From Winogradskyella sp. (GTDB taxonomy: Bacteria > Bacteroidota > Bacteroidia > Flavobacteriales > Flavobacteriaceae): a stretch of 64,000 bases of DNA. The number at the start of each line of letters is the position of its first letter. The first letter of the stretch is position 1. This document shows, in pieces, positions 15,700 to 57,067 of the stretch. The position numbers were made by a program, and so were the translations under genes. The notes below the pieces were generated by a model. That model did not search any database, was not told the DNA's origin, and saw only the letters and a program-made list of their open reading frames with translations. The DNA is taken from assembly GCF_003712105.1 (NCBI RefSeq), contig NZ_RHLG01000002.1, forward strand, positions 1-64,000, given 5' to 3'.

Positions 15700-15708
15700 A
15701 TAAGATTT

Positions 15709-21415: not shown

Positions 21416-21441
21416 TTAAATTGTTACACATATTAATCTTT

Positions 21442-23975: not shown

Positions 23976-23980
23976 GATAA

Positions 23981-34431: not shown

Positions 34432-35183
34432 TCTTCTGCTTTACGTTTCAGAGTGCTTTTACTCAGGACAGTTTGTGCGTATTTAAAGTCAATGGCTCTG
34501 TACTAAAAACCAGTGCTAATGCTATACAGGTAGTTAAAAAAGGAGATTATATCATACGTTCAGATAAGTTTGTTTTAGACAATGCTTCAAATATTCTTAG
34601 TATCGATAAATTGGGTAACGCCTATGTGTTAAATCAAAAAGGGAATTATAGTTTTAAAGATTTCATTTCTAATAAAGAATCTAAATCTTCATCAGGACTA
34701 ACAAGTAAATACTTTAAACTTATTTGGAAAGAATTACGAAACGCCAATGGTAATGCTACACTTATTGGTGGCGTGTTTAGAGGTGAGCAGCTAATGATAT
34801 TCCCTCGAGATACAGTTAAAATTGCTAGCTCTAAGATTGCGTTTGGTTGGAAAAGAGCAGATGAAGATTCAAAGTATTACGTATTTATTAGAGATATTGA
34901 AAATGATAAGACAGCGAAGTTTGAACTCAACACAAACGAGTTAACACTTTATAAAGCTAATCCGATTTTTTCTAATGGAACCTTTTTTGAATGGGTTGTT
35001 ACTACTGATGAATTTCCTAACCTAGACAACCTCACATTTTTCTCTTTTGAGTTAATCAACAAATCTGAATATAAAAGCTTGATCAAAGATTACTCAGCTT
35101 TTCAACAAGAACTAAAAGCACTTGGTTTTTCTAGTGAGGACATAAAGAATGCTATTTGCGAAGCATACGGGATTTGTAATTAA
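34407..35183 (+). CDS. Secreted protein of unknown function, partner of the CHASE2 protein
   Basis: The start chosen is ATG at 34407 (258 residues), because a clean signal peptide (MAKYAFILIFCFTFQSAFTQ) follows; a longer frame adds residues that read as shadow of the CHASE2 gene. The mature N-terminus (about 21-95) looks like a small beta-domain of FecR or SH3 type (VNGSVL, VKKGDYIIRSDKF, LDKLGNAYVLNQKGNYSF). The middle is beta-rich, and a C-terminal helix resembles tails of caspase-locus proteins. Its stop overlaps the caspase-TPR gene stop by 4 bp. Confidence 0.7.
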   Translation: MAKYAFILIFCFTFQSAFTQDSLCVFKVNGSVLKTSANAIQVVKKGDYIIRSDKFVLDNASNILSIDKLGNAYVLNQKGNYSFKDFISNKESKSSSGLTSKYFKLIWKELRNANGNATLIGGVFRGEQLMIFPRDTVKIASSKIAFGWKRADEDSKYYVFIRDIENDKTAKFELNTNELTLYKANPIFSNGTFFEWVVTTDEFPNLDNLTFFSFELINKSEYKSLIKDYSAFQQELKALGFSSEDIKNAICEAYGICN

Positions 35184-38158
35184 TTTCTCAAAATATACTT
35201 TGAAACGGTAGACTTACTGTAATCGTCTTTGAGTTTATTGTCCTTAATTAAAAACGGATTTACTTTACTTAAAAGGCTGTTGTAAGCTGATAAATTACCT
35301 TTATAACTAGAGTAGACGGCAGCTAATAAAAAATCTTGTTGTTGGGTTTTAAGAGCTAACAAACCATTATAATACGCATCACATTTTTTACTGTCATTAG
35401 CATCAATAGTTGCTTTTACAAGCAGTTTTATAATGTCTATTTTATTGGCTTTTGTTTTAATTTTATCGGCTAGCGATTCAGCTATTTCTATAGATTGCGT
35501 TGTTTCTTCTTGTAGGTATAAAAACTTAGCATATTCATATCCTGTTGTAAATGTGGGATGAATATCATATGCCAGTTTGTAAAGCGCTTTTGCATCACTA
35601 GGTGTGCCAAAGCTCATTTTAGTTTTTGCGGCATTAATAATGTACGCGGCTATATCATCTAAGGCGTTTATGTCTTTATTTTGTGATGACGAAATGCTGA
35701 AGTGTTTTTTGGCAGTATCTACATCATTACTCTCAACGGCACTGTAACCAAGATTTGAATGAATTTTAGAATAAGACTCGTCAATAGCAATAGCTTTTTT
35801 ATAACTGTTTATAGCTTCGGTATAATTAGCATTAGCAAAATGAGTTTTCCCCAGAAGATTCCATAACTCAGGAACATTCGGTTGTTCCTGCATAGCTGTT
35901 TTAAGTAATGCAATTGACTTGTCGGTTTCCTTCAGTCTGTTGTATACATCCACAAGCTTTACATAAGCATTAATGTTGTTCTTGTTTTTGTCAATAGCGG
36001 TTTGGTATTGTGTTATTGCATCAGAATCGTTTTTGAATGCTACCTCTAAAAACTCACCGTACTTTAAGTGAATATCCGAATTAATAGGATTATTTGCAAT
36101 GCCGTCAATAAACCATTGTTTTGATTTTGCTTTTCTATTTAATTTGTAAAACAACCATGCGCGTCCAGCATAGGCAGCAATATTTTTTTTGTCGTTGACA
36201 ATCGCAGTTTTGTATAAAGAATCTGCAAGTTTTAGTCGTGTTAATTTAGATGTATTCGTTCTTAAATAGTCGGCATAGTCACTATATCTTTTCGATATTT
36301 CTGGTTCGGAATCAATAGCATTAAGTAAAAGTTGCTCAGCAGATTTATCATCTAATTTTTTGGCTTCGATATATCTTAATAGGTCAATAGTATTGGTCTT
36401 AGAGATTTTTGTATACCATTCATTAGCTGCCTGATTATTACCTTTAAGAGTTTCTATGTTAGCTAAACCTTCAAGTGCTTCGGAATTATTACGTTCAGTT
36501 TCTAATATCTCTTTATATATTTTTTCTGCTATATGGTATTTACCTTGGCTAATATTAATCTCGGCTAATCTTAGCTTACTATATATGTCATTTCCATTAA
36601 TACCAACTGCGGTGTTAAAGATTTCTGTTGCCTCATCGAACTTATATTGGTCTATATAATTATCGCCAAGATTTACTTGAGGTGTTTCCCAAGTGTTTAT
36701 AAGCTTTTTTGCTGTATTAAAATGGTAATAAGCACTATCGTAAACAGCTTCGTAGTTGTATACTATACCCATAGCATTATGCACATAAGCTGCTCGGGGT
36801 TCAATATTTAATGCATTGAGAAGTTTCTTTTTCGCTAAACCATATCTAGCTGTATTTCTATTTCTAATAATGCTGTAGGCTTCGAGCATTAGCTTACTCA
36901 CGGTAATTCTGTCCTTTAACAGGTTATCATCATCCATAAGTTCTAAACATATGTCAAGATGTTTTGCTTCTCTTTGAAATGTTCTCGCATTAGGTAACTT
37001 TTTTTCACCTGAAATGTATCTGTTAATGAGTTGCTGTGCCGAACTCGAAAGTTGTGAGAGCAACACTGTTTTCATTTTTTCTAGATATGATTCTGAAATT
37101 GAATTATCTGCTTTTGCCTTTTTATAGATGTCGTAAGCGCTTGAAGACTTTCCGTAATACGATTCACTTTTAATTGCATTAGCAAACTGAGTAACTTGAG
37201 CAGGAAGCGATTTATCAGTATCGGTAATACTTCTTGCAGCAATGACTTTTGTTTGGTCTATTGCTTTTTTTACATCTTCAAATGAAACTATTTTATCTTC
37301 TTCTTTGATTTTTTTGAGGATTGCACGAGCATCTTTAGTTCTTACAACCGGAGTTTGTTTTTGATTGTGTTTTTCTGAAACTGTACTGGCGACATTATCG
37401 TATAGGTAATCATCAATTTCTCTAAATTGCAACTCATTATCAGCATTATCATCTGCTTCTCCAGTGAGACCTTTTACAAAATAATGCGTAAAATAACCGT
37501 GTTGTAAATCACTGCTCTCGTAAGACAATTCATCAACACCACAGCTTAAAAACTTTGAAGTATTCTCAAACATTGCTTGTAGTGTGCCCATATTTTTTTG
37601 TGGACCATCTTCGAAAATAAAGCCAGAGCGACATGCATCAAGAATTAGGATAACATTCGCGTTTTTTTGAGTCAAGGCTCTAATAATTCTATTGTTTAGT
37701 CGATCTAAAGCTATTACGCCACCAGTACCAACATACTCTCTGTTAGCGTTAGAGTCAGCAGCAAGCAGATAACCTTCTTTATATCCAAAATCTTCAACCA
37801 CATCGCCATGACCGGCAAAGTAGACATATACAATATCATTCTCTGCTATTTTTTTGGCTATTTGTCTAAAGGCATTTTCTATATTAAGCGCAACAGCATT
37901 TTTATTGATTAAGAGCTCAATATTTTCTTCTGGAATTTTTTCAATATCGCTGAGGTAATTTTTAAATAACGCTGCATCGTTATCAGCATAATTGAGTTTT
38001 AAATTATCCTCAAAATAGTCCGAAATACCAATTATAATAGCATATTTATTGCCCTCAACTATATTTTCATTGCTTTCACCAACCGAACCTCGAGAATCGT
38101 CTTGAGAATAGCCAATCGCAAAGAAGAAAATTAATATGTATTTTATATGAGGTTTCAT
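35180..38158 (-). CDS. Secreted caspase-family protease with TPR array
   Basis: This 992-residue protein has signal peptide MKPHIKYILIFFFAIGYSQ, then a caspase p20-like domain (about 36-260): YAIIIGISDYFEDN, the catalytic His in YVYFAGHGD (His117), YLLAADS, and the catalytic Cys in LILDACRSG (Cys176). About 20 tetratricopeptide-like helical hairpins follow (about 390-980), e.g. GKYHIAEKIYKEIL and YTEAINSYKKAIAID. The motif SRGSVGE (Arg23) sits directly after the signal-peptide site. Caspase homologues of this metacaspase-like type usually cut after Arg or Lys. It is the last gene of the ten-gene operon. TPRs probably bind partner proteins. Confidence 0.9.
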   Translation of the reverse strand: MKPHIKYILIFFFAIGYSQDDSRGSVGESNENIVEGNKYAIIIGISDYFEDNLKLNYADNDAALFKNYLSDIEKIPEENIELLINKNAVALNIENAFRQIAKKIAENDIVYVYFAGHGDVVEDFGYKEGYLLAADSNANREYVGTGGVIALDRLNNRIIRALTQKNANVILILDACRSGFIFEDGPQKNMGTLQAMFENTSKFLSCGVDELSYESSDLQHGYFTHYFVKGLTGEADDNADNELQFREIDDYLYDNVASTVSEKHNQKQTPVVRTKDARAILKKIKEEDKIVSFEDVKKAIDQTKVIAARSITDTDKSLPAQVTQFANAIKSESYYGKSSSAYDIYKKAKADNSISESYLEKMKTVLLSQLSSSAQQLINRYISGEKKLPNARTFQREAKHLDICLELMDDDNLLKDRITVSKLMLEAYSIIRNRNTARYGLAKKKLLNALNIEPRAAYVHNAMGIVYNYEAVYDSAYYHFNTAKKLINTWETPQVNLGDNYIDQYKFDEATEIFNTAVGINGNDIYSKLRLAEINISQGKYHIAEKIYKEILETERNNSEALEGLANIETLKGNNQAANEWYTKISKTNTIDLLRYIEAKKLDDKSAEQLLLNAIDSEPEISKRYSDYADYLRTNTSKLTRLKLADSLYKTAIVNDKKNIAAYAGRAWLFYKLNRKAKSKQWFIDGIANNPINSDIHLKYGEFLEVAFKNDSDAITQYQTAIDKNKNNINAYVKLVDVYNRLKETDKSIALLKTAMQEQPNVPELWNLLGKTHFANANYTEAINSYKKAIAIDESYSKIHSNLGYSAVESNDVDTAKKHFSISSSQNKDINALDDIAAYIINAAKTKMSFGTPSDAKALYKLAYDIHPTFTTGYEYAKFLYLQEETTQSIEIAESLADKIKTKANKIDIIKLLVKATIDANDSKKCDAYYNGLLALKTQQQDFLLAAVYSSYKGNLSAYNSLLSKVNPFLIKDNKLKDDYSKSTVSKYILRN

Positions 38159-38191
38159 TTTAAGACTTAAAAATAGCGATTTGAATTTTTA

Positions 38192-41100
38192 TCACTCAAA
38201 TAATACAAAAGCAGCCCATTTTTCTGGGTTGTTTTTGTATGTATTAGACATGGTTAATTGGGTGTTTCTAAAGGCTTCTCTGATGTCTTGCCCATTAGAC
38301 CAATTAGTATAAAAATGTACCATAAATTCAGAAGTTTCCTTGTCTGGTACTTCCCAAAGGCTCATGATAATAACATCTACACCAGCCATTTTAAATGCAC
38401 GCTGTAAGCCATACACACCTTCACTACCATCAATATCACCTAAAGCGGTTTCACAAGCAGATAAAACAACTAATTCCGTGTTTCTTAAATCTAGATGCGA
38501 AATTTCATCCGCGGTTAATACACCATCAACGCCAGATGTTAAAGCCTTCATACCTTCATTTGCGTTGCTGAGCAAAATACCAGTGCGTTTCAGTGGATTT
38601 TGAGCAACAGTAAAATGCTTACCAAACTTTGAAGTACTGTTTCCAATTTCGTTATAAAATCCATGCGTAGCTATATGAAGTATTGAAGGTGATTTACCAG
38701 ATAGACTCCAAAAGAATTCTTCAGTTGCGTTTTTACCTGAATAGATTTTAGCGGCTGGAATTATTTCTTTGATTTTGTTTACTTCTTTCAGTGTGCCCGG
38801 TAAAAAACTGTAGCCTTTATTATCATCGTTGTCTTGGGAACCATTATAATCAATACCTCCAAAACAGAGCATACTATTAAAGTCGAATAATTTTTCTTGC
38901 TTATCAATTAGTGAATTCATATTTGATATTTGATGAAGTGTATATTTATTAATAAGCATTTCACCATCTGAATCTTGTAAGGTAGCTAGAGGTATTTTGT
39001 TTAAAAGACCATCGAATGAGAAGTATATTGTGTCTGAATTTGATATGACATCTTTTATTGGTTTCCACAAAAACTCATATAGGTGTTTACCTCCAATTGA
39101 AGTGCTATTGCCTGAAGAGCCGCGAATATCGTATGACAGATTTTGAACCGTACTCAATTTGGTTAATTCTTCGAGTCGACTTTCAGGACCTAGATAAACG
39201 ATATTCGGATTAGATTTTTTTTCTGAATATACATATGCTATGTATACATTTTCATTCTCAAAGTTTTTAACTCTTGTATAGTCTATGTAGACACTATTGG
39301 AGTTGAGATTGATAGATTTGTAATCGGGTACAACTATTAGATTTTCACCAAAAGTTTTAAAATAGAAATCGATTAGCGCAGCATAACCTTCCTGAATTCT
39401 GCTTTCAACACTGTTAATATTAATTTTAGACTCATTGATTATTTTCTTTTGTTCATCTTCCCAATCAACACGCTCTGCAAAGTCTATTAATTGCTTACGA
39501 TATTCAAATATTGAAGAGTATTTAAGTAAAATATTATTTAACCCTAAAATCTTTTTATCTAGCTCTTTATCATTAAGACTCCATAGCTTCTCAAAAATAG
39601 AGTTCATGGTATTCAGCCTAAGGTTTTTAACGGTGGATGCAGCGCGTATTGCTTTTTGGTTTAGTTCTGCATCAGATTGATTTAAAACATAATTTAAATA
39701 CTGTATCTGACCAAGTAAATCAAAAGCGTCATTTTGGAGTTTATAATCTTTACTAGAAGTAGCCTTATAGCGAATTTCGTTTTCGAGTTCTTTTAAATAA
39801 TAGGTATATGCTTTTGAGTAATATTGTACAGCAGTCTCATAACTTTCTTCTTGTGCTAATAACTGAGCGTACTCTGACACAACATAGCAATAGTCACTTT
39901 TATCCTCTTCATTTTCAAGTTCTTTTAAAGACTTTTCTAAATTTTCTTTACGATTATTTCCTTCAGAATCTTGTAATTCTTGGATGTAAAGTTCTACATT
40001 TTTGTATTCCTTTGTATCCGTTAAGTTTTCTTCTTCTAATTCTGTTTTGTAAGCATTTAATAATGCAAATCCTTCATCTGACTTACCAAGTATTATTAGC
40101 GTTAAAGATTTTACTGATATTACAGATTCTTTGTCGAGTAAATTAGTTGAATTGGAGTTAAAATAATCTAATGCTAAGTCTGCATAGCGTATGGCTTGTT
40201 CATGGTTTTTAGAGTTCATGTGTATCCAAGCAATAGTAGCATTTAAATAACCATATTCTTTTGGTAACGCATTTATAGTTTCTTGATTCTTGAGAAGTAA
40301 GTTTATATTTTTATCTACATCATTATTATCTATATAAAAGTTAGATAATAAGATGAAAAAATCCACATATTCTGATTTATATAAGTCTAAGGATTGGCAA
40401 TATTCTATAGCCGAAATTAAATGGTTTTTATAAATGTTTGTTTTTGTTTTATCATCTTTGATAAGAGACACATAATCGACTAGTACTTTTAAATAATCTT
40501 CATTTACTAATTTTAATGACTCATAAGCCTCAATCTCTTTTTCAAAAACTCTTTGTTTAGCGTTTTTTAGCTCTCTTTCATTTAAGAGGCTTAGGTAGTT
40601 ATTTCTTGTTACAATATAATCTGGGATACCAACGCTTTTATTAATTAAATAATAATTTATGGCATTTTCACCATACAGTTTAGCAAGTTTTAAATTATTA
40701 ATAGAATAATTGTAACCCATGAGTTCGTTATACATCCAAGCGGTTCTTAAGCTAAAATCACCATACTTAGCTGTATATAACTCAATTAATGTGTCTGAGT
40801 AGCTATTAACTCTAGCATTGTCTCTCAACTCATAGCTTGCAAGAAAAGCCTGCTCTAATAGTTTTTCTTTTTGTGCGGAGTTATTATCTATTGAAATTGC
40901 TTTTTCATAAGCAGACAGCGCTGATTCATAGTCTTTATTATTGAAATAAATATTACCATATAGAATAGCTGTATTGTGATATTCTGATTTAAAATGACTT
41001 AAATTGTTAGTTTCTATAGTTTCCCATTTTTCAAAAAAGTAAAGTGCGTTTTCATAATAATGATTTATAGATTCTATCAACGCTAAATCTTTGTAAATTC

Positions 41101-41536
41101 TATAGTCGGTATATACTTCATTTTCATTAGTAGCTAGATTAAAAATAGTCGCATAATACTTCGATAGTAGTGATTCTTCTGCATTGGTGTTATCCGAAAA
41201 TTTTTGTTTTAATTCTTCTCTTAGAATAGCATTGTCTTGATAGACATCATTGACATATTCTAAGAACATTGTGTCTATATTTTTACCAGAATTACTTTTG
41301 AGTAATTTGGAAGAATTTTCCAGTCTATCTACCGTTATTATTACACTTGGATTGTTGTTTGTGGATAATTCAAATGCTTTATTGTATTGGTCAATTGCAG
41401 AGACGTAATTTTTTGCATTGTGTAAGCTATCACCAATTTTAATAATGTCTTTCCATTGCTTATAATTATTACCCTCTTGGCACCAACTTAAAGCAAAGTT
41501 GAGTAATAGAATAGTTGCGAAAATAGAGTTCTTCAT
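38192..41536 (-). CDS. Secreted TPR-CHAT protease
   Basis: This 1114-residue protein has a signal peptide (IFATILLLNFALSWCQ), a long TPR region (about 25-640, e.g. YVSAIDQYNKAFEL, YESALSAYEKAISID, YETAVQYYSKAY), and a C-terminal CHAT domain of the caspase superfamily (about 770-1114) with the catalytic His in LHIATHGFY (His958) and the Cys in VVLSACETALGD (Cys1028). The motif IRGSSGNS (Arg805) lies in a loop just before the LYEFLWKPI helix of the CHAT domain. CHAT proteases with TPRs include Csx29 and HetF-like enzymes. The last about 105 residues nearly equal those of the next upstream gene (41547-45413), a recent duplication or conversion. Confidence 0.9.
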   Translation of the reverse strand: MKNSIFATILLLNFALSWCQEGNNYKQWKDIIKIGDSLHNAKNYVSAIDQYNKAFELSTNNNPSVIITVDRLENSSKLLKSNSGKNIDTMFLEYVNDVYQDNAILREELKQKFSDNTNAEESLLSKYYATIFNLATNENEVYTDYRIYKDLALIESINHYYENALYFFEKWETIETNNLSHFKSEYHNTAILYGNIYFNNKDYESALSAYEKAISIDNNSAQKEKLLEQAFLASYELRDNARVNSYSDTLIELYTAKYGDFSLRTAWMYNELMGYNYSINNLKLAKLYGENAINYYLINKSVGIPDYIVTRNNYLSLLNERELKNAKQRVFEKEIEAYESLKLVNEDYLKVLVDYVSLIKDDKTKTNIYKNHLISAIEYCQSLDLYKSEYVDFFILLSNFYIDNNDVDKNINLLLKNQETINALPKEYGYLNATIAWIHMNSKNHEQAIRYADLALDYFNSNSTNLLDKESVISVKSLTLIILGKSDEGFALLNAYKTELEEENLTDTKEYKNVELYIQELQDSEGNNRKENLEKSLKELENEEDKSDYCYVVSEYAQLLAQEESYETAVQYYSKAYTYYLKELENEIRYKATSSKDYKLQNDAFDLLGQIQYLNYVLNQSDAELNQKAIRAASTVKNLRLNTMNSIFEKLWSLNDKELDKKILGLNNILLKYSSIFEYRKQLIDFAERVDWEDEQKKIINESKININSVESRIQEGYAALIDFYFKTFGENLIVVPDYKSINLNSNSVYIDYTRVKNFENENVYIAYVYSEKKSNPNIVYLGPESRLEELTKLSTVQNLSYDIRGSSGNSTSIGGKHLYEFLWKPIKDVISNSDTIYFSFDGLLNKIPLATLQDSDGEMLINKYTLHQISNMNSLIDKQEKLFDFNSMLCFGGIDYNGSQDNDDNKGYSFLPGTLKEVNKIKEIIPAAKIYSGKNATEEFFWSLSGKSPSILHIATHGFYNEIGNSTSKFGKHFTVAQNPLKRTGILLSNANEGMKALTSGVDGVLTADEISHLDLRNTELVVLSACETALGDIDGSEGVYGLQRAFKMAGVDVIIMSLWEVPDKETSEFMVHFYTNWSNGQDIREAFRNTQLTMSNTYKNNPEKWAAFVLFE

Positions 41537-41546
41537 TATTTAATAT

Positions 41547-45413: not shown

Positions 45414-45424
45414 GAGTATTCGTT

Positions 45425-46774
45425 TTAATAGGGTACACCAAATATTGAGAACGCTGCCCAATATTTTGGGTCATCATTAACGTTGTTTTTATAATTCAAA
45501 ATGGCACGTCTTAGTGCTTCATGTGGCATAAGTTCTTTAGCGGTTTCTAATTCATTAAAGAAAAATTTCATCATGGTAGCAGTTTCGCTATCACTAATAT
45601 TCCATAAACTCATTAACACATGTTGTGCGCCTGCAATCTGAAATGCTCTTGCCAAGCCAATAATACCACCTTGATGCGACTTACCAAGACCTGTTTGGCA
45701 TGCACTCAATACAACGAGGTCTGCTTTTAGTTTACAAGTATGTCTTGTGTTCATGATTTCTCTCAATGAGAGATATGATGTTTCGGTATTATTATCTGCT
45801 AATACCAAAAAACTATGATCCATTGGTTGCTCGGAATTTGAGATACCGTGCGTTGCAAAATAGAGTAGGTCGTATTTACAGATACTATCTAATACATTTT
45901 CTTTTGTAGCTATCTTACCGCTTAATCTGTTGTATGCTTTTGGTTTAGATTTTTCTAAAACATAATTTACCTCTTGCTCAGCTCCTGGTAGGTCTGGAAA
46001 GTCCCATTTTAGGTTGTTAGGATATTCTGGGTTGGCCACAAATAATGCGTTGTCCCATTGGTAATTTACAAAGTTATTATCATCGTATCTATGCTCGTTC
46101 TTATCGCTTGAAAGCAGTAATTCGAATAAGTTTGGAGCGATTGAGTAGCTCATTTTATCAATGAGATATAGAGCTTCATCCGTAAATAAGTCCTTGATTT
46201 TAAAAGCACCAAAAGGTAAAGTTGCAATATTAAAAGTTGGTACAATGATAAGGTGATCAAATATGGATAACTCTAAACTATTTGGTAATAAGATTTCATT
46301 TAATATAGTGTATGACGCCTCTCCATCACTGGTATTACTATTGCCTTCTGCACCTCGTAATTTAGGTGCCCGATTTAAAAAGTTTGATGAAAATAAATAG
46401 TTGGCATTATTGACGTGGTTTTGTAAAAGGCTTGCATCAATTTGTACTTCATGCTCATTGTATTGCGCTTTGCCAAACCGTTTTGAAAACAAACTTATCT
46501 TTAAGGTGTTTTCATAGTAGGTATATACCAAAATCCCTACGTTTTTTAGGGTGTATTTTGCGAGTACTTTTTGTAGAAGTCTATCATCAAAATTATCTGT
46601 GGTTATCCAATCTTGTGGCGCGCCCCTGTAATCGTATAAAGCTCTAATATCTTTTTGGTGCTTTTTAATTAGGCTATCAATCTCAGGTGTATTAAAGAGG
46701 ACATCATTGTTTTGTGCAAGAACATTTAAATGACAACAAAAGATAATTGATATGGCTACTATTACAGACCTCAT
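45425..46774 (-). CDS. Short secreted CHAT protease without TPRs
   Basis: This 449-residue protein has a signal peptide (VAISIIFCCHLNVLAQ), a short alpha/beta N-terminal part (about 25-135), and a CHAT domain (about 150-449) with the catalytic His in LLYFATHGIS (His309) and the Cys in VVLSACQTGLGKS (Cys359), then IIGLARAFQIAGAQHVLMSLWNI. The motif LRGAEGNS (Arg140) precedes the ILNEILLPNSL helix, in the same position as in the long CHAT proteins. It may be the minimal active protease of the locus. Gap to the preceding gene is 9 bp. Confidence 0.9.
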   Translation of the reverse strand: MRSVIVAISIIFCCHLNVLAQNNDVLFNTPEIDSLIKKHQKDIRALYDYRGAPQDWITTDNFDDRLLQKVLAKYTLKNVGILVYTYYENTLKISLFSKRFGKAQYNEHEVQIDASLLQNHVNNANYLFSSNFLNRAPKLRGAEGNSNTSDGEASYTILNEILLPNSLELSIFDHLIIVPTFNIATLPFGAFKIKDLFTDEALYLIDKMSYSIAPNLFELLLSSDKNEHRYDDNNFVNYQWDNALFVANPEYPNNLKWDFPDLPGAEQEVNYVLEKSKPKAYNRLSGKIATKENVLDSICKYDLLYFATHGISNSEQPMDHSFLVLADNNTETSYLSLREIMNTRHTCKLKADLVVLSACQTGLGKSHQGGIIGLARAFQIAGAQHVLMSLWNISDSETATMMKFFFNELETAKELMPHEALRRAILNYKNNVNDDPKYWAAFSIFGVPY

Positions 46775-46783
46775 AACTTATTA

Positions 46784-48535: not shown

Positions 48536-48539
48536 GGCC

Positions 48540-50645
48540 TTACTCTTTTCGTTTTAAAAATATAAATTCACCACCTTCGTGATTAGCATTTCTGATAACT
48601 CCATATTGTGGAATATTATCAGTATTTGCCAACACCACTTCTTGGATAGTACTAAACAAATCACTAGCCTTTAGGTGTATGGCATTATTCTCTTTGAGTG
48701 TTTTAAGTAGGTATTTTATAAATACGCTCTCGTCTGGTACAGGTTTGTCCAAACCGCTTGTCATGGCATTACGCGCATTTTTATTTAAAAGCTTTTCTAC
48801 AGCTTTTGTTGATGTTTCAGAGGTTACATCTCTATTAAATTCAAAAATCGAGCCACTAAAGCAAGCATCACTAATAAGCAAGGTGTGTTTTGTTTTAATG
48901 TTAGTGATGTAATCTTTAATATCTAGATTAGACATCCATGAACTTTTACTGTCTAACTCTGCATCAGAAGGCAACCAATAGCCGCGTTTAAAATCTGAGT
49001 CATATACACCATGTCCGGCATAGAATATTAGTAAATGGTCTTTGCTAGAGCTTATTTCGTAAAGTTGATGCAATGCATCAAAAATTTCTTTACGTGTTGG
49101 ATCTTTTAAAAATGTAACATTAGAGGCACTAAACGCATAATTATTTACTAACACGTCTTTAAATTCTTCGGCGTCTTTAATAGGGAATTTTAAATCGCTA
49201 ATGTTATCATCCTCATAGTTTTGTTCTGCTATGACTAATGCTCTATATGTATATTGAGATACAACATCTTTTTTCTCAGGGATAGGTTGAGCACCTCTTG
49301 TGGCTCCATTTCTACCAAGATTATTGGTTAAGTTTTGTACTTGTTTTTTGAGTGTGTTTATTTCTTTTTCGAGTTTCGAAATTTTAGCACGCATTGTTTT
49401 ATTTTCACCTTCAAGAAAAGCTACTTTTTCAGCATCAGAAAGTTTTGCATAGTATCTAGCACGTTTTTCAGCTTCACGTCTTTTTCTATTGGTAGATTTT
49501 TTTTGAGTCGACGCAATTTGAGCTTTCTTTTTAGCATTTTGTTCGGCTAAAATTCTATCTCTTTTCGCCATTTTTTTTAAAGTTTCTAAAGTCTTATAGG
49601 CATATTGTTTGGCGGCTTCTTCGTTTCCAAGTGCTTTATGTAAGGCAGTTATCTCTTTAAGCTTATCAATATGGGCATTACTTAATTCGCCATTAACTGA
49701 TTTAATATCTTCAAGCTCAGAAATAGCGGATTCCAGTTGCGGAGTAGTCTTTGGTTTGTATATGTCAACAGCAGTATTATAAGGCATTTTGCCGTTGTCA
49801 TCAACAATGTTATAGTCGAACTCATACGTATACATCTCTGTATACGAATCTTCGATGTACTCTAAAGAGCTACTATCTTCGTTTTTGATGATTGGATTAA
49901 AGTTTATTGGTTCTGGTGATGCAAAACCTTTGAGTGTTAGGGTTTCATAAGGTGGTGCAAACTGAAAAAAACAACTCTCGAAAGTGACCGTTTTCTTCGG
50001 AGGAATTTGACGCTCATTACCCAATAAAGCACAGTTAACATTTGGGATAAACCCTGTTAACTCACCTTTAGTATTGATTTCTACAACACTAAAGTATATG
50101 GGACTATCAGAATGATTTGTGACTTCTAAAATCGCAGCAGAATCACTAGTGTTAAAATTGAAAATTCCATCAGTTTCTATTGCATCAGTTCTTGGTGTAA
50201 TTTTTAGAGTCTCCTCATCATAACGAACAGGTAATAGTCTGAAACTAAACTTATAGTCTTCATTTTTTAGTTTTAAATTTTTAATTCTATACCCATATGC
50301 ATATTGGTTCATTTTATCCTCCAATATGCTTAAGACTTTATCAGGTTTTGAATTATCAATTTTGAAAATAACACGATTATCAGGCACTTGCGTAATAAGA
50401 TAATTAGTGCCGTCAAAAGATAAATCGAGATTGCTTTTAGTCTTATCATTAACGGTAAAGCCTAATCCTTTTAGAGACATAAATTTTTCAACGTCTTGTT
50501 TAAGATTTATGTTATTAAATGAAGTGTCAAAATTGACTTTGACGTCAACCGAATTATATGATGGAGCAGGCGCTGGCGGCGGTAAATCCTGAGCTATACT
50601 GGTGTAAAAGCTCAATAATAACAATATTCTCAGTAGCCTTTTCAT
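48540..50645 (-). CDS. Secreted DUF4384-coiled coil-caspase protein
   Basis: This 701-residue protein has a signal peptide (ILLLLSFYTSIAQ), a region like the C-terminus of its neighbour with a DUF4384-type domain (about 110-290; PIYFSVVEINTKGELTGFIPN, FAPPYETLTLKGFAS), a helical and charged coiled-coil segment (about 300-445), then the motif TRGAQPI (Arg450), and a C-terminal caspase domain (about 465-700) with YRALVIAEQNYED, His545 in FYAGHG and Cys595 in SDACFSG. The domain order is the reverse of the upstream gene's. The motif is placed so that cutting would free the caspase domain from the coiled coil. Confidence 0.9.
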   Translation of the reverse strand: MKRLLRILLLLSFYTSIAQDLPPPAPAPSYNSVDVKVNFDTSFNNINLKQDVEKFMSLKGLGFTVNDKTKSNLDLSFDGTNYLITQVPDNRVIFKIDNSKPDKVLSILEDKMNQYAYGYRIKNLKLKNEDYKFSFRLLPVRYDEETLKITPRTDAIETDGIFNFNTSDSAAILEVTNHSDSPIYFSVVEINTKGELTGFIPNVNCALLGNERQIPPKKTVTFESCFFQFAPPYETLTLKGFASPEPINFNPIIKNEDSSSLEYIEDSYTEMYTYEFDYNIVDDNGKMPYNTAVDIYKPKTTPQLESAISELEDIKSVNGELSNAHIDKLKEITALHKALGNEEAAKQYAYKTLETLKKMAKRDRILAEQNAKKKAQIASTQKKSTNRKRREAEKRARYYAKLSDAEKVAFLEGENKTMRAKISKLEKEINTLKKQVQNLTNNLGRNGATRGAQPIPEKKDVVSQYTYRALVIAEQNYEDDNISDLKFPIKDAEEFKDVLVNNYAFSASNVTFLKDPTRKEIFDALHQLYEISSSKDHLLIFYAGHGVYDSDFKRGYWLPSDAELDSKSSWMSNLDIKDYITNIKTKHTLLISDACFSGSIFEFNRDVTSETSTKAVEKLLNKNARNAMTSGLDKPVPDESVFIKYLLKTLKENNAIHLKASDLFSTIQEVVLANTDNIPQYGVIRNANHEGGEFIFLKRKE

Positions 50646-50646
50646 A

Positions 50647-52635
50647 TTATTTATCCTTTACGATCTCATAGACAAACTCCGTAGAATAACCTTCAACATT
50701 CGAGGTGTCAGATTCTCCAGTATTTCCACGTGTTTTAGTATAGGTCTGCCCAACAAAACGTTCTAATGGGTTGGTATTGGTATTGCCTCGTGTTTTTACT
50801 GTAGGTGCAAAATTAATAGGCTGAGATGTTGCGAAGCCTTTAAGAATTAAAGTCTCATATGGAGGTCCAAAGGTATATCTACATGTAGTGATAATTTTGG
50901 TTTGTCCAGGCATTAGTTTTAATTCTTGGGCATTAGGATTACAGCCACCACCTACATTTGGATTTGGCATAAATGCTGCGATTTCACCTTTAGAGTTAAT
51001 TTCTATAATACTGAAATACAACGGCTGGTCGCTTTTATTGGTGACTTCTAATCTAGCAGCTTGCTTTAAAGCATCATTTCTTTTTGACGCTTGTACCTGA
51101 AATTTACCTGCTTCATTAGTATAAGCACCTTCTTCTAACATTTCAATTTCATCAATATCGCTATCATATTCTGCAGGTAGTAGTCTAAACTCAAACTCAT
51201 AATCCAAATTATCTAAGGTTAATTGTTTTAGATAACTACCTTGTGCGTAATTAAAGATGGTTTCTTCAATTTGTTTTAAATTATAATTACCATCAATACG
51301 GGTTTGTGTATAAATGGAATTTCCACCATTAGCTGTTAATACAGATAGTTCTGTATTGTCTTTTTCGGATATAATTATGTCTGCCTCAGTGTCTTCTTTT
51401 ACGATGCTTCCAAAACTGTTGGTCTCTAAGAATGATTCAATATTATCCTTGACACTTTTAGTCTTAACCGATTTTTCAAAAAATACATTCAAAGAAATAT
51501 CACCATAACTAGGCTTATCTACAAATACCCAGTAGGCTTTATCATTTTTGTCTGGTAAAGCTTTATCTAATTTAATTAAGGCATCATTATAGTTGGCTTT
51601 AGTAATTTTACCTGAAGCGATAATTAAGTCTTGTGTTACTTTGCTCGTGCCTGCTGGCAAAACATGTACTGTAGTTTCTTTAAATAAACGCTGAAGCTTA
51701 CCGCCATTGATTTTTATAATATCTGGTCTTGCCACTCTATTGACAGAGAAATAAGGTTGTTGCTTTACATATTCGCCTTTAAATATTTTGTAGTTAACAT
51801 CACCTTCAATTGTTGGGTTTTGTTTAGGTGAAATGACATTCATATTGGCAGCAATTGATGAGAATAGCCTGCTGTATGTAAAGTCCGTACCTAATTGATT
51901 CATAGCTTTAGCAAATGCAAAACTCAATGAGCCATATCCTTCGTATTCGTAGTTAAGCTCATCTGCGGATGCGCCCGAGAACATTACAAATGGTGAAGCA
52001 TCATCCGACAGATTTACTTTTTCTACTAAACCACTTCCAGGTGTGTTTCGGTTAGAACTTGGCGTCCAATCTGGTGGTGCAAATGTACCTTGACCACCTC
52101 GCGCTTTGCCACCACGAGAAGCAGATCCAGAGTGACAACTATCTAATAGCATTAGTAATTGCCCATCTTTACCAATAGCATTTCTATAATTAGCAATGAT
52201 ATTGCCAAGCTCGTCATCTCTGATATGATTTTCACCTTTGTAATTAGATGTATATCTCACAAGAGCGTCATAAGGTACAAGTGCTTCGTCTTTATCATCG
52301 ATTTCGTCACCATTATTATCGAAAATTTGTTGTCCATGACCCGAGTAGTGAATCACAACAATATCGCCTGGTTTAAGTTTTTCCTGTAAAGCTTCAAAAG
52401 CGTTTAAAATGCCTAGTCGTGTCGCTTCGGCATCTTTTAATATTATAATATTTTCATCTTTAAAATCATGCTTTAAAAGTGCGCCTTTAATTAAAGGGAC
52501 ATCGTTAACTGAAGATATTTTAGACCAGCCTGTTTTTGGCTGATAGTCACCAACCGCAACAATTAGCCCGTACTTTTCAGCAAAAGTGCTTAACGAAAAT
52601 GTAAGGCATAATAAAAGAAGTATAATTCGTTTCAT
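50647..52635 (-). CDS. Secreted metacaspase-DUF4384 protein
   Basis: This 662-residue protein has a signal peptide (IILLLLCLTFSLSTFA), then a type I metacaspase-like p20 domain (about 21-290) with YGLIVAVGDY, the catalytic His in IHYSGHGQQ (His100) and the Cys in LLDSCHSGSA (Cys167). A Gly-rich loop with two RG sites (Arg174, Arg179; ARGGQGT) follows the Cys, where caspases carry their self-processing linker. Residues about 440-610 include a DUF4384 domain. The tail carries two further motifs, TRGNTNTN (Arg616) and TRGNTGES (Arg636), as insertions missing from the aligned region of the downstream neighbour. Gap to that neighbour is 1 bp. Confidence 0.92.
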   Translation of the reverse strand: MKRIILLLLCLTFSLSTFAEKYGLIVAVGDYQPKTGWSKISSVNDVPLIKGALLKHDFKDENIIILKDAEATRLGILNAFEALQEKLKPGDIVVIHYSGHGQQIFDNNGDEIDDKDEALVPYDALVRYTSNYKGENHIRDDELGNIIANYRNAIGKDGQLLMLLDSCHSGSASRGGKARGGQGTFAPPDWTPSSNRNTPGSGLVEKVNLSDDASPFVMFSGASADELNYEYEGYGSLSFAFAKAMNQLGTDFTYSRLFSSIAANMNVISPKQNPTIEGDVNYKIFKGEYVKQQPYFSVNRVARPDIIKINGGKLQRLFKETTVHVLPAGTSKVTQDLIIASGKITKANYNDALIKLDKALPDKNDKAYWVFVDKPSYGDISLNVFFEKSVKTKSVKDNIESFLETNSFGSIVKEDTEADIIISEKDNTELSVLTANGGNSIYTQTRIDGNYNLKQIEETIFNYAQGSYLKQLTLDNLDYEFEFRLLPAEYDSDIDEIEMLEEGAYTNEAGKFQVQASKRNDALKQAARLEVTNKSDQPLYFSIIEINSKGEIAAFMPNPNVGGGCNPNAQELKLMPGQTKIITTCRYTFGPPYETLILKGFATSQPINFAPTVKTRGNTNTNPLERFVGQTYTKTRGNTGESDTSNVEGYSTEFVYEIVKDK

Positions 52636-52641
52636 GATATT

Positions 52642-54075
52642 TTAATTTAAATCAAACAGGCTAAACGAAATACCAAAATAGTAACCAAAATCATATACGT
52701 TTTTGGTAAATGAATCGATATCGTTAAATGAGGTCGTGTCACCAATATTGGCACCATTTGTTAATTGCCTTACTGGTCCATAAGCTAGACCACCAGATAA
52801 GGACAATCTACTTTTACTACCGAAGAATAACGATGGGCCAAATAAGAAATTAACACCATTAATTTGATCATCTCCAGATATTGGGATAGATAAACCAAAG
52901 CTTCCGCCAATATTAAAGTTTTCTCCTATAAAAGGATAAAAATTAATCATTGTACTTAGGTTAGGTACAAAATAATCATTTTGATCAGCTCCAATTACAC
53001 CATTTTGGTCGATAAAAAAGTCTTGAGAATTATCGCCAAAATTATTCAGTGTAAAAGCAACACTTGTGTTGATTTTAAAACCACCTTTTGAGTATAGCTT
53101 AATATGTCTGGTTTTTAACGTATTTGCTTCATCATCATTTTCGATTTGTGTAGAAAACTCACTCTGAACAAACTTCAATTCAATATCAACCTTATCAGCA
53201 GAGATTTCATAGTCGTATGTTTGCTCAAAATTTGAAGCTTCTAGCAGGGTGTAAAGAGATTTAAGCTCGTTTAAGCTTTGTAAACTCTGATTAGTTGACG
53301 AATTTAAGTCATTCATCAAGCGTTGCAGATTATTAAGAGCAATGTTTCTTGAAACTAATTCGCCTCTAGATACGGTTTGCTCTGTAGCAATATTGCTTTC
53401 AATATCTTTAGACATAATGTCTATATTACTCTCAAGCTCTGCCTTACTATCCTTAATGGACTTCTCTACTTTAGTGATATATCTATAAAAATTATCCTTT
53501 GCACTAGGAAGTCTTACATCTTGCTCGGCATCGGCAGTATTTACAAGGTTTTCTATAATTTGTTCCTTGTCCAGATTTGGATTTAATAAGTTAGAAATAA
53601 ATGTTGTTTTTAAAGCCGAAACATTTGTAAGCGTATTATTTAAATCTTCAAAACTCGAACTAGCATTTGCACTACCTCTTGAAGCACCTTCGGACTTAAA
53701 CATTCCTGTTTCAGGCAAATTAGAGGTGTTGAGGTTAAGCTGGTCGCCAGTAAACGAGTTTAAACCACCTAATAAAGAACTAAAATTGAATCCTTGTCCT
53801 TTGCTAATCAAATCTTCTTCCTTAACATCCGTTTTTACTTGAACGGCGAAAGGATTTACATTTTGAAGTTTTAGCTCAACCTGACTATTGCGTTTTAATT
53901 TAGGGTTTTCTAACGTGTCAATAACCGTATTCGTTTTGTCTATGAGTAAGTAGTTCACTTTTTCTGTTTGGTAATCGTACTCAACTCTGTAATGCTTCTG
54001 AGCCTGTAATAGTGAAGTACTTATTAATACAATAGCAAAAAATGAGACTGTAGTTTTCAATAGTTTTGATTTCAT
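52642..54075 (-). CDS. Secreted outer-membrane-like protein with helical stalk
   Basis: The start chosen is ATG at 54073-54075 (477 residues), giving signal peptide LLKTTVSFFAIVLISTSLLQAQ. Residues about 27-90 are beta-rich. The motif SRGSANAS (Arg133) lies in a Gly/Ser/Asn-rich segment. A long helical, probably coiled-coil region follows (about 140-300), then beta strands ending in an outer-membrane-like C-terminus (NIGGSFGLSIPISGDD, LSLSGGLAYGP, YYFGISFSLFDLN). I do not recognise the family. As one of only two proteins of the operon without a recognised enzyme domain or protease fold, it could be an effector or anchoring substrate; that is inference. Gap to the metacaspase gene is 6 bp. Confidence 0.8.
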   Translation of the reverse strand: MKSKLLKTTVSFFAIVLISTSLLQAQKHYRVEYDYQTEKVNYLLIDKTNTVIDTLENPKLKRNSQVELKLQNVNPFAVQVKTDVKEEDLISKGQGFNFSSLLGGLNSFTGDQLNLNTSNLPETGMFKSEGASRGSANASSSFEDLNNTLTNVSALKTTFISNLLNPNLDKEQIIENLVNTADAEQDVRLPSAKDNFYRYITKVEKSIKDSKAELESNIDIMSKDIESNIATEQTVSRGELVSRNIALNNLQRLMNDLNSSTNQSLQSLNELKSLYTLLEASNFEQTYDYEISADKVDIELKFVQSEFSTQIENDDEANTLKTRHIKLYSKGGFKINTSVAFTLNNFGDNSQDFFIDQNGVIGADQNDYFVPNLSTMINFYPFIGENFNIGGSFGLSIPISGDDQINGVNFLFGPSLFFGSKSRLSLSGGLAYGPVRQLTNGANIGDTTSFNDIDSFTKNVYDFGYYFGISFSLFDLN

Positions 54076-54103
54076 AATTGATAAATAATAATTTTGAAAG
54101 GCT

Positions 54104-55510
54104 TTATTTCTTAACCTTCCAATAAATTTTGTCTTTAAGTTTTGTAAGGTAGAGATGTTTTCTGTTGATGGCACGTTTACCCGATTTTATAATATCGAAT
54201 ATATCTGCTATAATTGAGTTTGTATCTGCAAAGTATGAATGACTTAATAGGCTAGTATCAATACCAGTGGCGTCGATGGTTTCTACGCCGTCAATAAGTA
54301 CTAATTTTTCTCCAGCATCACCTGCACGCGCATTACCATGTATTAATTTGGATGCTTTTAATGCTAAATCATCAGAATTTACATAAAGCGTAATTGGTTT
54401 TTCTGTGGAACTAACCATTTTAGGAGCAATATTGTTTTTAAAGACATCTGCATCTATATCTGGTGCTGCTAATATGATTTCTTTAATATTAGCTTTGAGA
54501 TTCGGATTCTCATTCATGACATCGACTATTGCTTTAGTCAATCCGCGATTACCCATACTATGTGCTACTAAATAGATGTCATCAGCACCAGATTTAGATA
54601 AATAATCTTCTAAGAATAATTTTATGTTTTTTTGAGACCATTTTATGTTTTTTTCATCTCTTCCGTATCTAAATGTTGAGGCTTGAGATGGCCAACTGTA
54701 AAAGACAGGTTTACCTTCAAATTTTAAGTCATAAGAGATTTGTGCTGTTCGTTTTGCTGCTTCTTGGAAAGACGTATTATAACCATGTACAAATAAAAAT
54801 GAACTCTTTTTATCTGACCTTCTTATATCTTCTGCAAGCTTTTTAAAGAATTTAGTTCTATCCAGTAGTTTTACCTTTTGAAGCATCAAATGTTTTGATG
54901 GGTCTTCAGAAAATTCAAACTTCCATATCGACGGACTTTCTATCTCGCCAACTCTATGGTCGTGAGGTATACTCACCTCTACAATACCATATTTAAGTGA
55001 GGAACGTTTAACCCCAAAGCGCTTGTTTAGAGTGGTGTTTTTGGTATCATTACGATCAGTACCAAAATAGACATCAAGAGTCACATAATCTGGACTTTTG
55101 GTATCACCTCTATCGTTATCATCGGTAACTGAAACACGTTGCAAACAAATTGTAATAGTTTCATTACTAACTGTTCCGCCTACTGAATAGCGTATTAAAA
55201 TAATTAAATTATTTCCAGAATCGAATCCATTATTGGTTAACAACCAAAATTTAAAATCGAAAGCATTAAACGCTTCAATTGCATTAAAATTTTGAACATT
55301 GCCATTAACCGAAACATTTATATCTAAATCATTTATTGAAACATCTTCATCAAGAACTACTAATTGAAATTTTGAGTAATCGCTTGTGTTGGTTAAACAA
55401 TTTTCTTGATTAAAGCTATTGTCACTTATTCCAAAAACTGCTTGGTTTTGACTCCAACATACAGTGCAATTGAATATTGCAAAAAATAGTATGTAAAAAG
55501 ATGTTTTCAT
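54104..55510 (-). CDS. Secreted DUF900-type alpha/beta hydrolase
   Basis: The start chosen is ATG at 55508-55510 (468 residues), beginning with signal peptide SFYILFFAIFNCTVCWSQ. The N-terminal about 115 residues are beta-rich with three Cys. The motif DNDRGDTKSP (Arg134) marks the border to a hydrolase domain of the DUF900 family (about 142-440) with VDVYFGTDRN-like opening, SFLFVHGYNTSF, FYSWPS, nucleophile Ser318 in VAHSMGN, acid residue in AAPDID and probable His424. The substrate is unknown; lipase or esterase activity is possible, so this could be a membrane-damaging effector released by cleavage. Confidence 0.88.
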   Translation of the reverse strand: MKTSFYILFFAIFNCTVCWSQNQAVFGISDNSFNQENCLTNTSDYSKFQLVVLDEDVSINDLDINVSVNGNVQNFNAIEAFNAFDFKFWLLTNNGFDSGNNLIILIRYSVGGTVSNETITICLQRVSVTDDNDRGDTKSPDYVTLDVYFGTDRNDTKNTTLNKRFGVKRSSLKYGIVEVSIPHDHRVGEIESPSIWKFEFSEDPSKHLMLQKVKLLDRTKFFKKLAEDIRRSDKKSSFLFVHGYNTSFQEAAKRTAQISYDLKFEGKPVFYSWPSQASTFRYGRDEKNIKWSQKNIKLFLEDYLSKSGADDIYLVAHSMGNRGLTKAIVDVMNENPNLKANIKEIILAAPDIDADVFKNNIAPKMVSSTEKPITLYVNSDDLALKASKLIHGNARAGDAGEKLVLIDGVETIDATGIDTSLLSHSYFADTNSIIADIFDIIKSGKRAINRKHLYLTKLKDKIYWKVKK

Positions 55511-55531
55511 GATATACTGCTTCAATTAGTA

Positions 55532-57067
55532 CTAACGTCTTTTCTTTTTACGTTGCTTTTTAAGATACTTTCTTAAACTCTTATACCCAGCTTTTTTAGC
55601 TATAATTTCTGGGCGTTTACCGTCATTATTCTTAGCTCCAGCATATAGACCGTTATCTATTAAAAGTTTACAAAGGTTATAATTACCTGTTCTAGCAGCT
55701 TCGTGCAATAATGTATTGCCGTAGCTATCTTTTACAGATGTGTCGGCACCGTTTGCAATAAGTATAGCAGCTATTTCATATCGGTCATTACTTACAGCAC
55801 GTTGTAATAAAGTTTGTGAAGCATTAATGCCTGCATCAGCTAATATATCATTAGAAAGCAATAACTCTATTGCTTTTATGTTTCTTGAGCTGTAGGCCAT
55901 GTCTAATAATTCTCTGGCTAGGTCATCTGAAATATCTTTTTCAGCAGAAACTTTAAGTATTTTGCCAAGCGCATCAAGATTATTATTTTTTAGTGCTACT
56001 TTTTCTAATCTCGGTGCGGATGTATTATATTTTCCATTAAATATCCATTGGTAAATGCTCCAGCTATCAAAACGATCACTCAGATTATTTTCTATGGCGT
56101 ATTCTATATTTTCATAAACGGCAGTAATTAAGGCATGGCTTGGTACTGCTGTGATTTTATGTGATTGGCAACCAGCAGTGTATTTTACTTGATCCCATTG
56201 TACTGTTTTTACACAATTACATGATGCATCGTAGATATAATCACCGGTATAACCAGCGCTACTATATTTTACTGCACCTCGTACAAGAATACCTTCAATA
56301 AATCCGTTTTGGTCAAACACTGGACCACCTGAGTTACCAGGGAAAGAATCTATATCACTTTTAAACCATTTACTTGGTGAGTTGTCAATTACTACTGCAT
56401 CCGTAGCAAATTTTAGTGGTAAACCTGTTGGGCAACCAATAGTGTTAATTGCACCACCTTCTAACACTTTTCCGCTAGTTCTAAATCTATAAGGCGCTCT
56501 ATCAGATTTGCGTTTAAGCCTCAAAACAGCGTAATCATCATCTGATGTGTTTTCTATATACTCTGAAGTGATAATACTCTCAACTTCAAAGATGTTTTCT
56601 TTTTTAAATTGTAGTTTTCTATTATTTACAAATTCAGACTCGCTGGTATAATCAAACACCCAAACAAATTGGTTTGCATCTTCCATTGAATTAATACAAT
56701 GACCAGCGGTAACTAAGATGTCTGGAGCAATTAAAAATCCTGTACAAGAGCCAATAGCAGGTTGGTCTAAAAATCGCACATCATCAGCAAAGTTCGATGT
56801 TCCAAATTGCCTAGTCAGTTTTTCTCTCAACGACCAAGAGTAAAACTCGTCTTCGTAAATGTTTTGTTTTGAGATCATAACAGCAGTAGCTCTTACAAAG
56901 TCTTCGTAGCCTTCTGCATCTTTTACTTCTACACGACCGTCTTTACCAAAGACGCCTCTTGAAACCTTTGAACCGGGTTCTGCAAATGGGTATTCTATTT
57001 CGGTATTTTGCGAGAAATTAAATGCACAAACTAATAGTGCACTTAATAAAAGTGTAAGTTTTTTCAT
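55532..57067 (-). CDS. Secreted trypsin-like serine protease with ankyrin repeats
   Basis: This 511-residue protein is the first gene of the operon. Signal peptide KKLTLLLSALLVCAFNFS is followed by a short propeptide-like stretch with SRGVFGKDGR (Arg37, Arg45), then a V8/trypsin-like domain (about 55-320) with catalytic His123 (VTAGHC), Asp178 (DDDYAVLRL) and Ser246 (FPGNSGGPV). Three to four ankyrin repeats (about 385-505, e.g. NTLLHEAARTGNYNLCKLLIDNG) and a basic tail (KKQRKKKRR) end the protein. Chymotrypsin-fold proteases are often activated by cutting near the N-terminus, so the Arg-Gly motif is well placed for activation. Upstream lies the gene-poor 57-58 kb region. Confidence 0.92.
   Translation of the reverse strand: MKKLTLLLSALLVCAFNFSQNTEIEYPFAEPGSKVSRGVFGKDGRVEVKDAEGYEDFVRATAVMISKQNIYEDEFYSWSLREKLTRQFGTSNFADDVRFLDQPAIGSCTGFLIAPDILVTAGHCINSMEDANQFVWVFDYTSESEFVNNRKLQFKKENIFEVESIITSEYIENTSDDDYAVLRLKRKSDRAPYRFRTSGKVLEGGAINTIGCPTGLPLKFATDAVVIDNSPSKWFKSDIDSFPGNSGGPVFDQNGFIEGILVRGAVKYSSAGYTGDYIYDASCNCVKTVQWDQVKYTAGCQSHKITAVPSHALITAVYENIEYAIENNLSDRFDSWSIYQWIFNGKYNTSAPRLEKVALKNNNLDALGKILKVSAEKDISDDLARELLDMAYSSRNIKAIELLLSNDILADAGINASQTLLQRAVSNDRYEIAAILIANGADTSVKDSYGNTLLHEAARTGNYNLCKLLIDNGLYAGAKNNDGKRPEIIAKKAGYKSLRKYLKKQRKKKRR

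Follow-up and report, generated by a model that had tools for sequence, protein, structure and literature searches.

Does a short Arg-Gly peptide that recurs in all ten proteins of one caspase/CHAT operon mark them as substrates of a common protease, and if so, of which one? The operon lies in a 3.15 Mb Winogradskyella genome, within the window (the whole stretch of 64,000 nucleotides that was analysed, on contig C9), where its ten ORFs occupy 57067 to 35180 on the minus strand.

Ten predicted exported proteins of unrelated kinds

ORF1 (55532..57067, minus strand, as are all ten) encodes a trypsin-like protease with ankyrin repeats (Pfam Trypsin_2, 5.2e-17; Ank_2), ORF2 (54104..55525, first ATG five codons in) a DUF900 alpha/beta hydrolase (9.7e-48), and ORF3 (52642..54174, likely start ATG at 54075) an outer-membrane-barrel-like protein that belongs to the conserved core of the operon and has no Pfam match. 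ORF4 (50647..52635), a metacaspase-like C14 protein with a C-terminal DUF4384-like part, is proposed below as the hub that reads the tag. ORF5 (48540..50645) joins a copy of this C-terminal part to a coil and a C14 caspase (1.3e-17), and ORF6 (46784..48535) an N-terminal part without assigned fold to a C14 caspase (339-557, 2.2e-22); the idea that ORF6 joins a dead caspase to a live one was discarded, BLASTP between its halves being empty. They are followed by a short CHAT protein, ORF7 (45425..46774, 5e-54), by the TPR-CHAT proteins ORF8 (41547..45461, 1.6e-62, likely start ATG 16 codons in) and ORF9 (38192..41536, 2.4e-62), and by ORF10 (35180..38158), a C14 caspase with TPR (C14, 5.2e-20), whose type closes most related operons as the final gene. 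The only contig-level match for ORF7 is that of Winogradskyella ouciana, 71% identical.

As judged by eye, each of the ten ORFs begins with a signal-like hydrophobic stretch (when read from an inner ATG in the case of ORF2, ORF3 and ORF8), and the proteins are thus predicted to be exported or envelope proteins. Their Pfam matches fall into several unrelated kinds (trypsin, DUF900 hydrolase, C14 in ORF4, 5, 6 and 10, CHAT in ORF7, 8 and 9, none in ORF3), which bears out the view of an earlier, sequence-only reading that the peptide spans unrelated folds. Searches of the operon proteins against PADLOC, PHROGs and NCBIfam gave generic or sub-cut-off matches alone, and the CHAT part had no match by sequence among solved structures.

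A convergent gene pair adjoins the operon, consisting of a CHASE2 protein without RG (33265..34431, plus strand, Pfam CHASE2 1.2e-20) and a partner (34338..35183, plus strand) that is predicted to be exported, belongs to no Pfam family and has one RG in its sequence. In 8 of 10 Winogradskyella operons the pair faces ORF10 in convergent orientation, and in G042 it lies directly downstream of ORF4; it is a candidate sensor.

Position of the Arg-Gly sites and their background frequency

The 12 Arg codons and peptides listed by the sequence-only reading are all correctly placed, all on the minus strand. In ORF1 the tag is SRGVFG (Arg37, 56954..56959) and in ORF2 DRGDTKSPDY (55106..55111), the least like the others, while that of ORF3 (SRGSANAS, 53674..53679) lies between a beta domain and helices, inside a segment with pLDDT<50. 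ORF4 has sites at Arg179 (52096..52101, pLDDT<50), Arg616 (50785..50790) and Arg636 (TRGNTGES, 50725..50730, with 637-644 at pLDDT<50), and one further site absent from the earlier list, Arg174 (52111..52116), just past the catalytic Cys at the p20/p10 junction, the region in which caspases undergo processing. From ORF5 to ORF10 the tag stands 11-28 residues ahead of the caspase or CHAT match: TRGAQPIP in ORF5 (49293..49298, 18 residues ahead of C14), FRGSNGIS in ORF6 (47576..47581, 20 residues ahead of C14), LRGAEGNS in ORF7 (46352..46357), TRGSQGNT in a removable loop of ORF8 (42570..42575, 11 residues ahead of CHAT), IRGSSGNS in ORF9 (39119..39124) and SRGSVGES in ORF10 (38087..38092), the last about four residues past the likely signal-peptide cut. 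The tag peptides are of the type LYQTRGSKAKSTT. The sites were thus found at borders of catalytic domains or in disordered loops, much as had been proposed.

A stricter motif had also been claimed for all ten proteins, and here the claim fails: its formula fits, by eye, 4 of the 12 peptides (TRGNTGE, LRGAEGN, TRGSQGN, SRGSVGE), and what ORF1 and ORF2 have in common with the other tags is just [small/acidic]-R-G. This weakness of the extended consensus in ORF1 and ORF2 speaks against a common cleavage site. Four kinds of Arg codon (AGA, CGA, CGT, CGC) are used across the tags, so that the likeness is one of protein and not of a copied DNA element, an origin ruled out by these codons together with the differing folds.

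The RG dipeptide itself is not enriched. Its density is 2.49 per 1000 residues in nine operon ORFs (ORF2 was removed by the overlap filter), against 2.07 in a background of ORFs of at least 150 residues from 382.5 kb of own-genome stretches and the rest of the window (123.5 thousand residues), where 152 of 320 proteins contain RG; enrichment was therefore dropped as evidence for a tag. The pattern RG[SNAG]xG[NEIT][STF], fitted post hoc when the peptides were already known, occurs seven times in the nine operon ORFs and not once in the 320 background ORFs (shuffle mean 0.007). A whole-genome DNA scan with [ST]RG[SA]xG, which recovers just two of the operon's own sites (ORF8, ORF10), gave 11 + 1 matches and five in-ORF peptides, these two included; none of the three extra ORF matches, which we take to resemble a SusC plug, a dUTPase tail and a ketoacyl synthase, is convincing as a client outside the operon. 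Since RG density is ordinary and only 4 of 12 peptides follow the strict formula, the case for a tag rests on conservation.

The tag is conserved in related operons

Within the genus, ORF3 relatives with at least 66% identity are encoded by 11 of 68 genomes (own included), and within the family 8 of 397 genomes have an ORF3 match at E<=1e-10; for ORF4 relatives, with E<=1e-25, the figures are 2 of 395 genomes in the order and 24 of 395 in the class, the own genome again counted. Most of the ORF3/ORF4-bearing loci from these genus, family, order and class searches were compared. Near operons of the same type keep RG at the aligned place in nearly all proteins: ORF1 13/14, ORF2 12/12, ORF3 16/16, ORF4 16/16 at each of four sites, ORF5 5/5, ORF6 5/5, ORF7 6/6, ORF8-type CHATs 21/21 and ORF10 12/14 (own operon counted, genes broken at sequence edges set aside, and loci taken other than those of G395, G042, G138, G105 contig C7, G015 contig C202 and G002 contig C24). 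An ORF9 relative in G197 has NTRGSEGSN at a like place. The one ORF1 loss is a truncated copy in G025 with RD instead of RG; of the two ORF10-type losses, a G080 protein has SRG ahead of its own C14 part and that of G105 is a true exception. Four operon-embedded genes lack a border tag (13881-17246 and 20307-24632 in G013, 19773-21446 in G078, 5882-10000 in G105).

The dipeptide stands out from its surroundings. Among the ORF3 matches listed (120 of 263), R is kept in 120/120 and G in 118/120, while the flanks average 0.53, and for ORF10 (81 of 109 matches after a length filter) R is kept in 79/80 and G in 80/80, the flanks averaging 0.38. The observation of a common RG tag is therefore real, and because RG is conserved amid changing flanks, these comparisons point to a shared, selected recognition tag of the protease type, a reading of the alignments in which we place high confidence.

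ORF3 has a second RG site, SRGELV, invariant in 120/120 (again 120 of 263 matches), which may mark another cleavage site or else cap a helix. Its structural model (pLDDT 75.1) comprises a beta domain (28-86), disorder (88-135), helices (135-280) and barrel strands (about 319-471). The fold search gave no confident match (best Foldseek E 2.5e-3, and one match to a generic helix bundle), and no function was assigned from the fold for this reason.

The CHAT loop behaves as a cassette that tracks the ORF3/ORF4 system

Relatives of the ORF8 CHAT part fall into two groups, with RG in the loop in 90/120 and a shorter loop without RG in 30/120 of the matches listed. Full-length-type CHATs outside the operon comprise five with RG (L140, L141, L144, the broken gene L154, and L148), nine without it (L142, L143, L145, two in L146, L149, L150, L151 and L152) and one exception to the rule that follows; solitary congener CHATs aligning over the C-terminal half only are not counted here, nor is the CHAT of the own genome in L068. 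The genomes of the tagged five (G002, G086, G076 and G197) all encode ORF3 and ORF4 elsewhere, whereas the seven genomes with the nine untagged CHATs have a match to neither; the exception is L050 of G015, a tag-less CHAT despite an ORF3/ORF4 system. The association gives a Fisher p of 0.002 with kinship ignored, and as tagged and untagged CHAT genes are mutually related the counts are not independent. With contigs matched by their length, one that also bears a listed ORF3 or ORF10 match was found for 28/90 CHATs with RG and 0/30 without, a comparison biased by the closer relation of RG-containing proteins to the query. The proposal had called for a comparison with homologues outside such loci, and related CHATs do lack the motif where the genome lacks the system.

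These data bear on the simplest alternative, namely chance or plain inheritance, RG being common and the site simply old within the CHAT and C14 groups. It would accord with an RG density no higher in the operon than elsewhere, with the strict formula fitting 4 of 12 peptides and with the homology of CHAT and C14 members among themselves; yet RG stays invariant in several unrelated families while its flanks vary, and is lost in related CHATs without the ORF3/ORF4 system, and we regard this alternative as extremely improbable.

Flanking residues co-vary within operons

If a single protease read all tags, unrelated proteins encoded in one operon should resemble each other in the residues after RG. 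The preference is RGSxG[NE][ST] in the window's operon, RGSKAK or RGSKPK in most congeners, and RGAEA in G971. Within-class permutation of sites between operons gave p 0.011 with all classes, 0.0024 when ORF1-3 are removed and 0.0016 within the genus; once the window's operon is taken out, p rises to 0.035, and to 0.067 if just the caspase and CHAT classes are kept (113 hand-chosen sites in 15 operons; seven tests, uncorrected). The sample was drawn from outside G081, G015, G138, G105 and G395 (a near copy of G197) and from RG sites at tag positions. Co-variation of the flanks between non-homologous proteins of one operon is, on these sequences, supportive and not decisive, and it leans on the window's own operon.

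ORF4 as the proposed protease that reads the tag

ORF4 has a caspase fold and a His-Cys dyad, as metacaspases do: the presumed catalytic His100 (SGHG, 52336..52338, minus strand) and Cys167 (52135..52137, minus strand), in a DSCHSG that aligns with the metacaspase DSCHSG, are invariant in an alignment of 30 sequences with 27-69% identity, as is Asp165. This Asp lies two residues ahead of Cys167, which is presumably also the place of Asp211 in TbMCA2; metacaspase cleavage after Arg/Lys is often Ca2+ dependent. Asp211 is the S1 residue of TbMCA2 in the available text of PMC4357240, and the suggested metacaspase link is borne out in that ORF4 belongs to a class that cleaves after Arg/Lys (PMC3501461, available text). 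In the same 30 sequences R174, G175, G180, R636 and G637 are invariant and R179 is kept in at least 90%, Arg616 being less fixed across the class than in near operons (16/16).

In the ORF4 model, loop 169-180 has pLDDT<50 except at residue 174, and the conserved RG sites lie in the only strongly disordered loops besides the signal peptide. The ORF3 and ORF4 models thus place their sites in disorder, predicted to be exposed, where buried Arg would have spoken against cleavage. ORF5 is 34% identical to ORF4 375-661, and the ORF4 loops are absent from the ORF5 copies of this C-terminal part in 4/4 alignable cases, a fifth being unalignable. In the ORF5 of W. ouciana, an SRG lies close to the place of the missing ORF4 loop.

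The tag might also remain uncut and serve as a pseudosubstrate or docking peptide in an Arg-binding cleft, keeping the proteins in an inactive complex. For a fixed Arg-Gly in a floppy loop, docking is as plausible as cutting, and the available text of PMC4357240 describes a prodomain loop Arg in the S1 pocket of the gingipain RgpB, though one that is later cut. The invariance of Gly after Arg, the location of tags at domain junctions and the ORF4 site directly past the catalytic Cys favour cutting, and make docking a distinctly unlikely account.

A maturation or turnover site, at which a capped N-terminus is removed or domains are split without any switch, would suit ORF10, whose tag follows so closely on the likely signal-peptide cut. 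It would also suit exported Bacteroidetes proteins in general, which mostly begin with pyroglutamate, a residue that raises stability (PMC5837995, PMC10653852, as far as their available text goes). Maturation leaves unexplained that the tag tracks the ORF3/ORF4 system and that a site lies within the ORF4 catalytic domain, and we hold it to be very unlikely.

The more serious competitor to ORF4 is the operon's own trypsin-like protease, ORF1, with the caspases and CHATs all as its clients. ORF1-type proteins have AGHC or AAHC, GNSGG and an Asp six residues ahead of Ser in 16/17, within DxF(P/G)GNSGGP, the 17th being truncated; this Asp, which we take to occupy the place of trypsin Asp189 and to set the Arg/Lys preference, is thereby kept in 16/17 relatives. 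ORF1 is present in 5/5 Flavobacteriaceae systems examined outside the genus (G197, G395, G139, G160, G152), and activation of a co-encoded proenzyme by a trypsin-like protease has a precedent in the available text of PMC12799240. Against it, an ORF1 match (E<=1e-12) is missing in 15/22 ORF4-bearing genomes, which keep the ORF4 tags, and tags also occur in neighbouring C14 proteins of G971 (RGAEA) and in the CHAT of G1079, genomes without an ORF1 match, where an unrelated trypsin could substitute. ORF1 as the cutter of the tags therefore seems unlikely.

ORF4 is favoured as the hub because it is the constant partner and has a tag at its own junction, and we consider it reasonably likely, from these sequences, that the tag is cut by the metacaspase-like ORF4 and that the cut activates the clients. 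An envelope signal, perhaps received via the CHASE2 pair or the outer-membrane protein ORF3, would render ORF4 active; ORF4 would then cleave its own p20/p10 junction and, next, the tags of about nine co-encoded envelope proteins, presumably between R and G, which would free caspase, CHAT or other domains, with ORF1 and its Arg/Lys-preference Asp as a possible second cutter or amplifier. The freed caspase and CHAT domains would serve as executioners, and our best guess at their role is envelope defence or regulated death. ORF10 fits poorly, as a cut there would take off only about four residues and not release a domain. A protease cascade linking all ten proteins had been proposed; we infer that one hub protease with many clients fits at least as well as a multi-step cascade. 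Taken as a whole, we would give even odds to an envelope zymogen network in which a metacaspase hub drafts unrelated exported proteins, also from elsewhere in the genome, through a transplantable Arg-Gly cassette, its clients (caspases, CHATs, trypsin, hydrolase and outer-membrane protein) joining or leaving by gain or loss of a loop of about a dozen residues.

Comparison with known systems

To our knowledge, bacterial caspase systems known so far pair one protease with one or few substrates. By TPR-CHAT architecture ORF8 and ORF9 resemble Csx29 of Craspase, which acts with Cas7-11; the comparison is one of architecture and model score, and with the type III-E Csx29 model ORF7 scores 28.5 bits against a cut-off of 300, ORF8 and ORF9 not being listed. 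The model for EACC1-associated caspases (NF047832, cut-off 140 bits) gives 72.4 for ORF5, 64.5 for ORF10, 43.6 for ORF6 and 18.2 for ORF4. No Pfam match to gasdermin was found in the ten ORFs, and the fold search with ORF3 gave no confident match.

With metacaspases and orthocaspases (C14B), ORF4 shares a like fold, the His-Cys dyad and D-x-C, and differs from them by an extra C-terminal part with further tags and by an operon of clients; the four C14 proteins encoded here compare with at most three metacaspases per operon in a 2012 survey (PMC3501461, available text). The predicted conflict systems of PMC7159879 have a similar gene set (trypsin, caspase and alpha/beta hydrolase) and a proteolytic cascade was proposed for them; the proteins described here differ in having signal peptides and no vWA, MoxR or STAND Pfam matches among the ten, and a shared cleavage tag is not mentioned in the available text of that source. 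Literature searches, with bioRxiv and most subscription journals outside their scope, returned no paper in which we recognised a tag or an operon of this kind.

Among published systems, the closest in logic are the canu caspase-nuclease loci and the trypsin-gated pro-nucleases of Hachiman and AVAST, in which, according to the available text of PMC12799240, a caspase or trypsin cuts disordered insertions with conserved glycines and thereby activates a co-encoded proenzyme, much as proposed here. The operon itself lies outside canu, since a metallo-beta-lactamase-fold nuclease is missing from the Pfam matches of the ten ORFs and six flanking ones (ORF3 being without a family match). What sets it apart from canu is that ten predicted exported proteins are involved, that one tag extends over several unrelated families and that the clients are themselves proteases. 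Here the sequence alone indicates a substrate tag, a likely protease and about ten predicted envelope clients, which bears on the function of secreted caspase and CHAT proteins in bacteria and on the wiring of their activation, and relatives with and without the cassette provide a natural comparison set.

Gene content of the operon and recurrence of the ORF4 C-terminal part

Across the operons of loci L031-L050 and L071-L080, whose gene content was compared, most of those from the genus share a frame with ORF1-4 at the start and the C14 caspase gene ORF10 at the end; the CHAT and caspase genes enclosed by this frame differ from one operon to the next. In two Flavobacteriaceae genomes outside the genus (G197 and G395) the row consists of ORF3-ORF4-ORF10 only, and ORF1, encoding the trypsin-like protein, lies about 8 kb from it on the opposite strand.

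The C-terminal part of the metacaspase-like ORF4 is repeated at the N-terminus of the caspase ORF5 (window 48540-50645) and, in G080 (14869-17025), is joined to a relative of the short CHAT protein ORF7. In the alignable ORF5 copies of this part, the loops that carry the ORF4 tag, i.e., the Arg-Gly motif proposed as a protease cleavage site, are trimmed out. One contig (G081:C110, 60898 bases, including L044 and L153) has ORF4 at both ends, without the middle of the gene; either the replicon is circular or the assembly broke there.

ORF3 and a candidate counterpart

The second SRG of the outer-membrane-barrel-like ORF3 (SRGELV; Arg270 in ORF numbering, codon 53365-53367) is invariant among the relatives listed (120/120) and is placed between two long helices by the structure model. 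Directly upstream of ORF4 in seven class-level genomes (G1140, G1030, G914, G984, G1106, G1009 and G885; loci among L089-L101) lies a gene for a protein of 489-519 aa with LGxRG conserved around residues 52-83, which is perhaps the counterpart of ORF3.

Neighbouring genes

An endonuclease I gene whose product has a type IX secretion tail lies upstream of the operon (window 58044-60023, forward strand). At the other end, a CHASE2 gene and a small gene with a predicted exported product (window 33265-35183, forward strand) adjoin ORF10 tail to tail. This pair adjoins 8 of 10 Winogradskyella operons; it was not found beside the G087 operon, nor within the 3.3 kb examined past that of G080. In another ORF4-bearing genome (G042, L082) the pair follows ORF4 immediately and is co-oriented with it, and it also neighbours the tag-less CHATs of L142 and L143, loci outside operons in genomes without the ORF3/ORF4 system. 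The CHASE2 pair is a candidate sensor.
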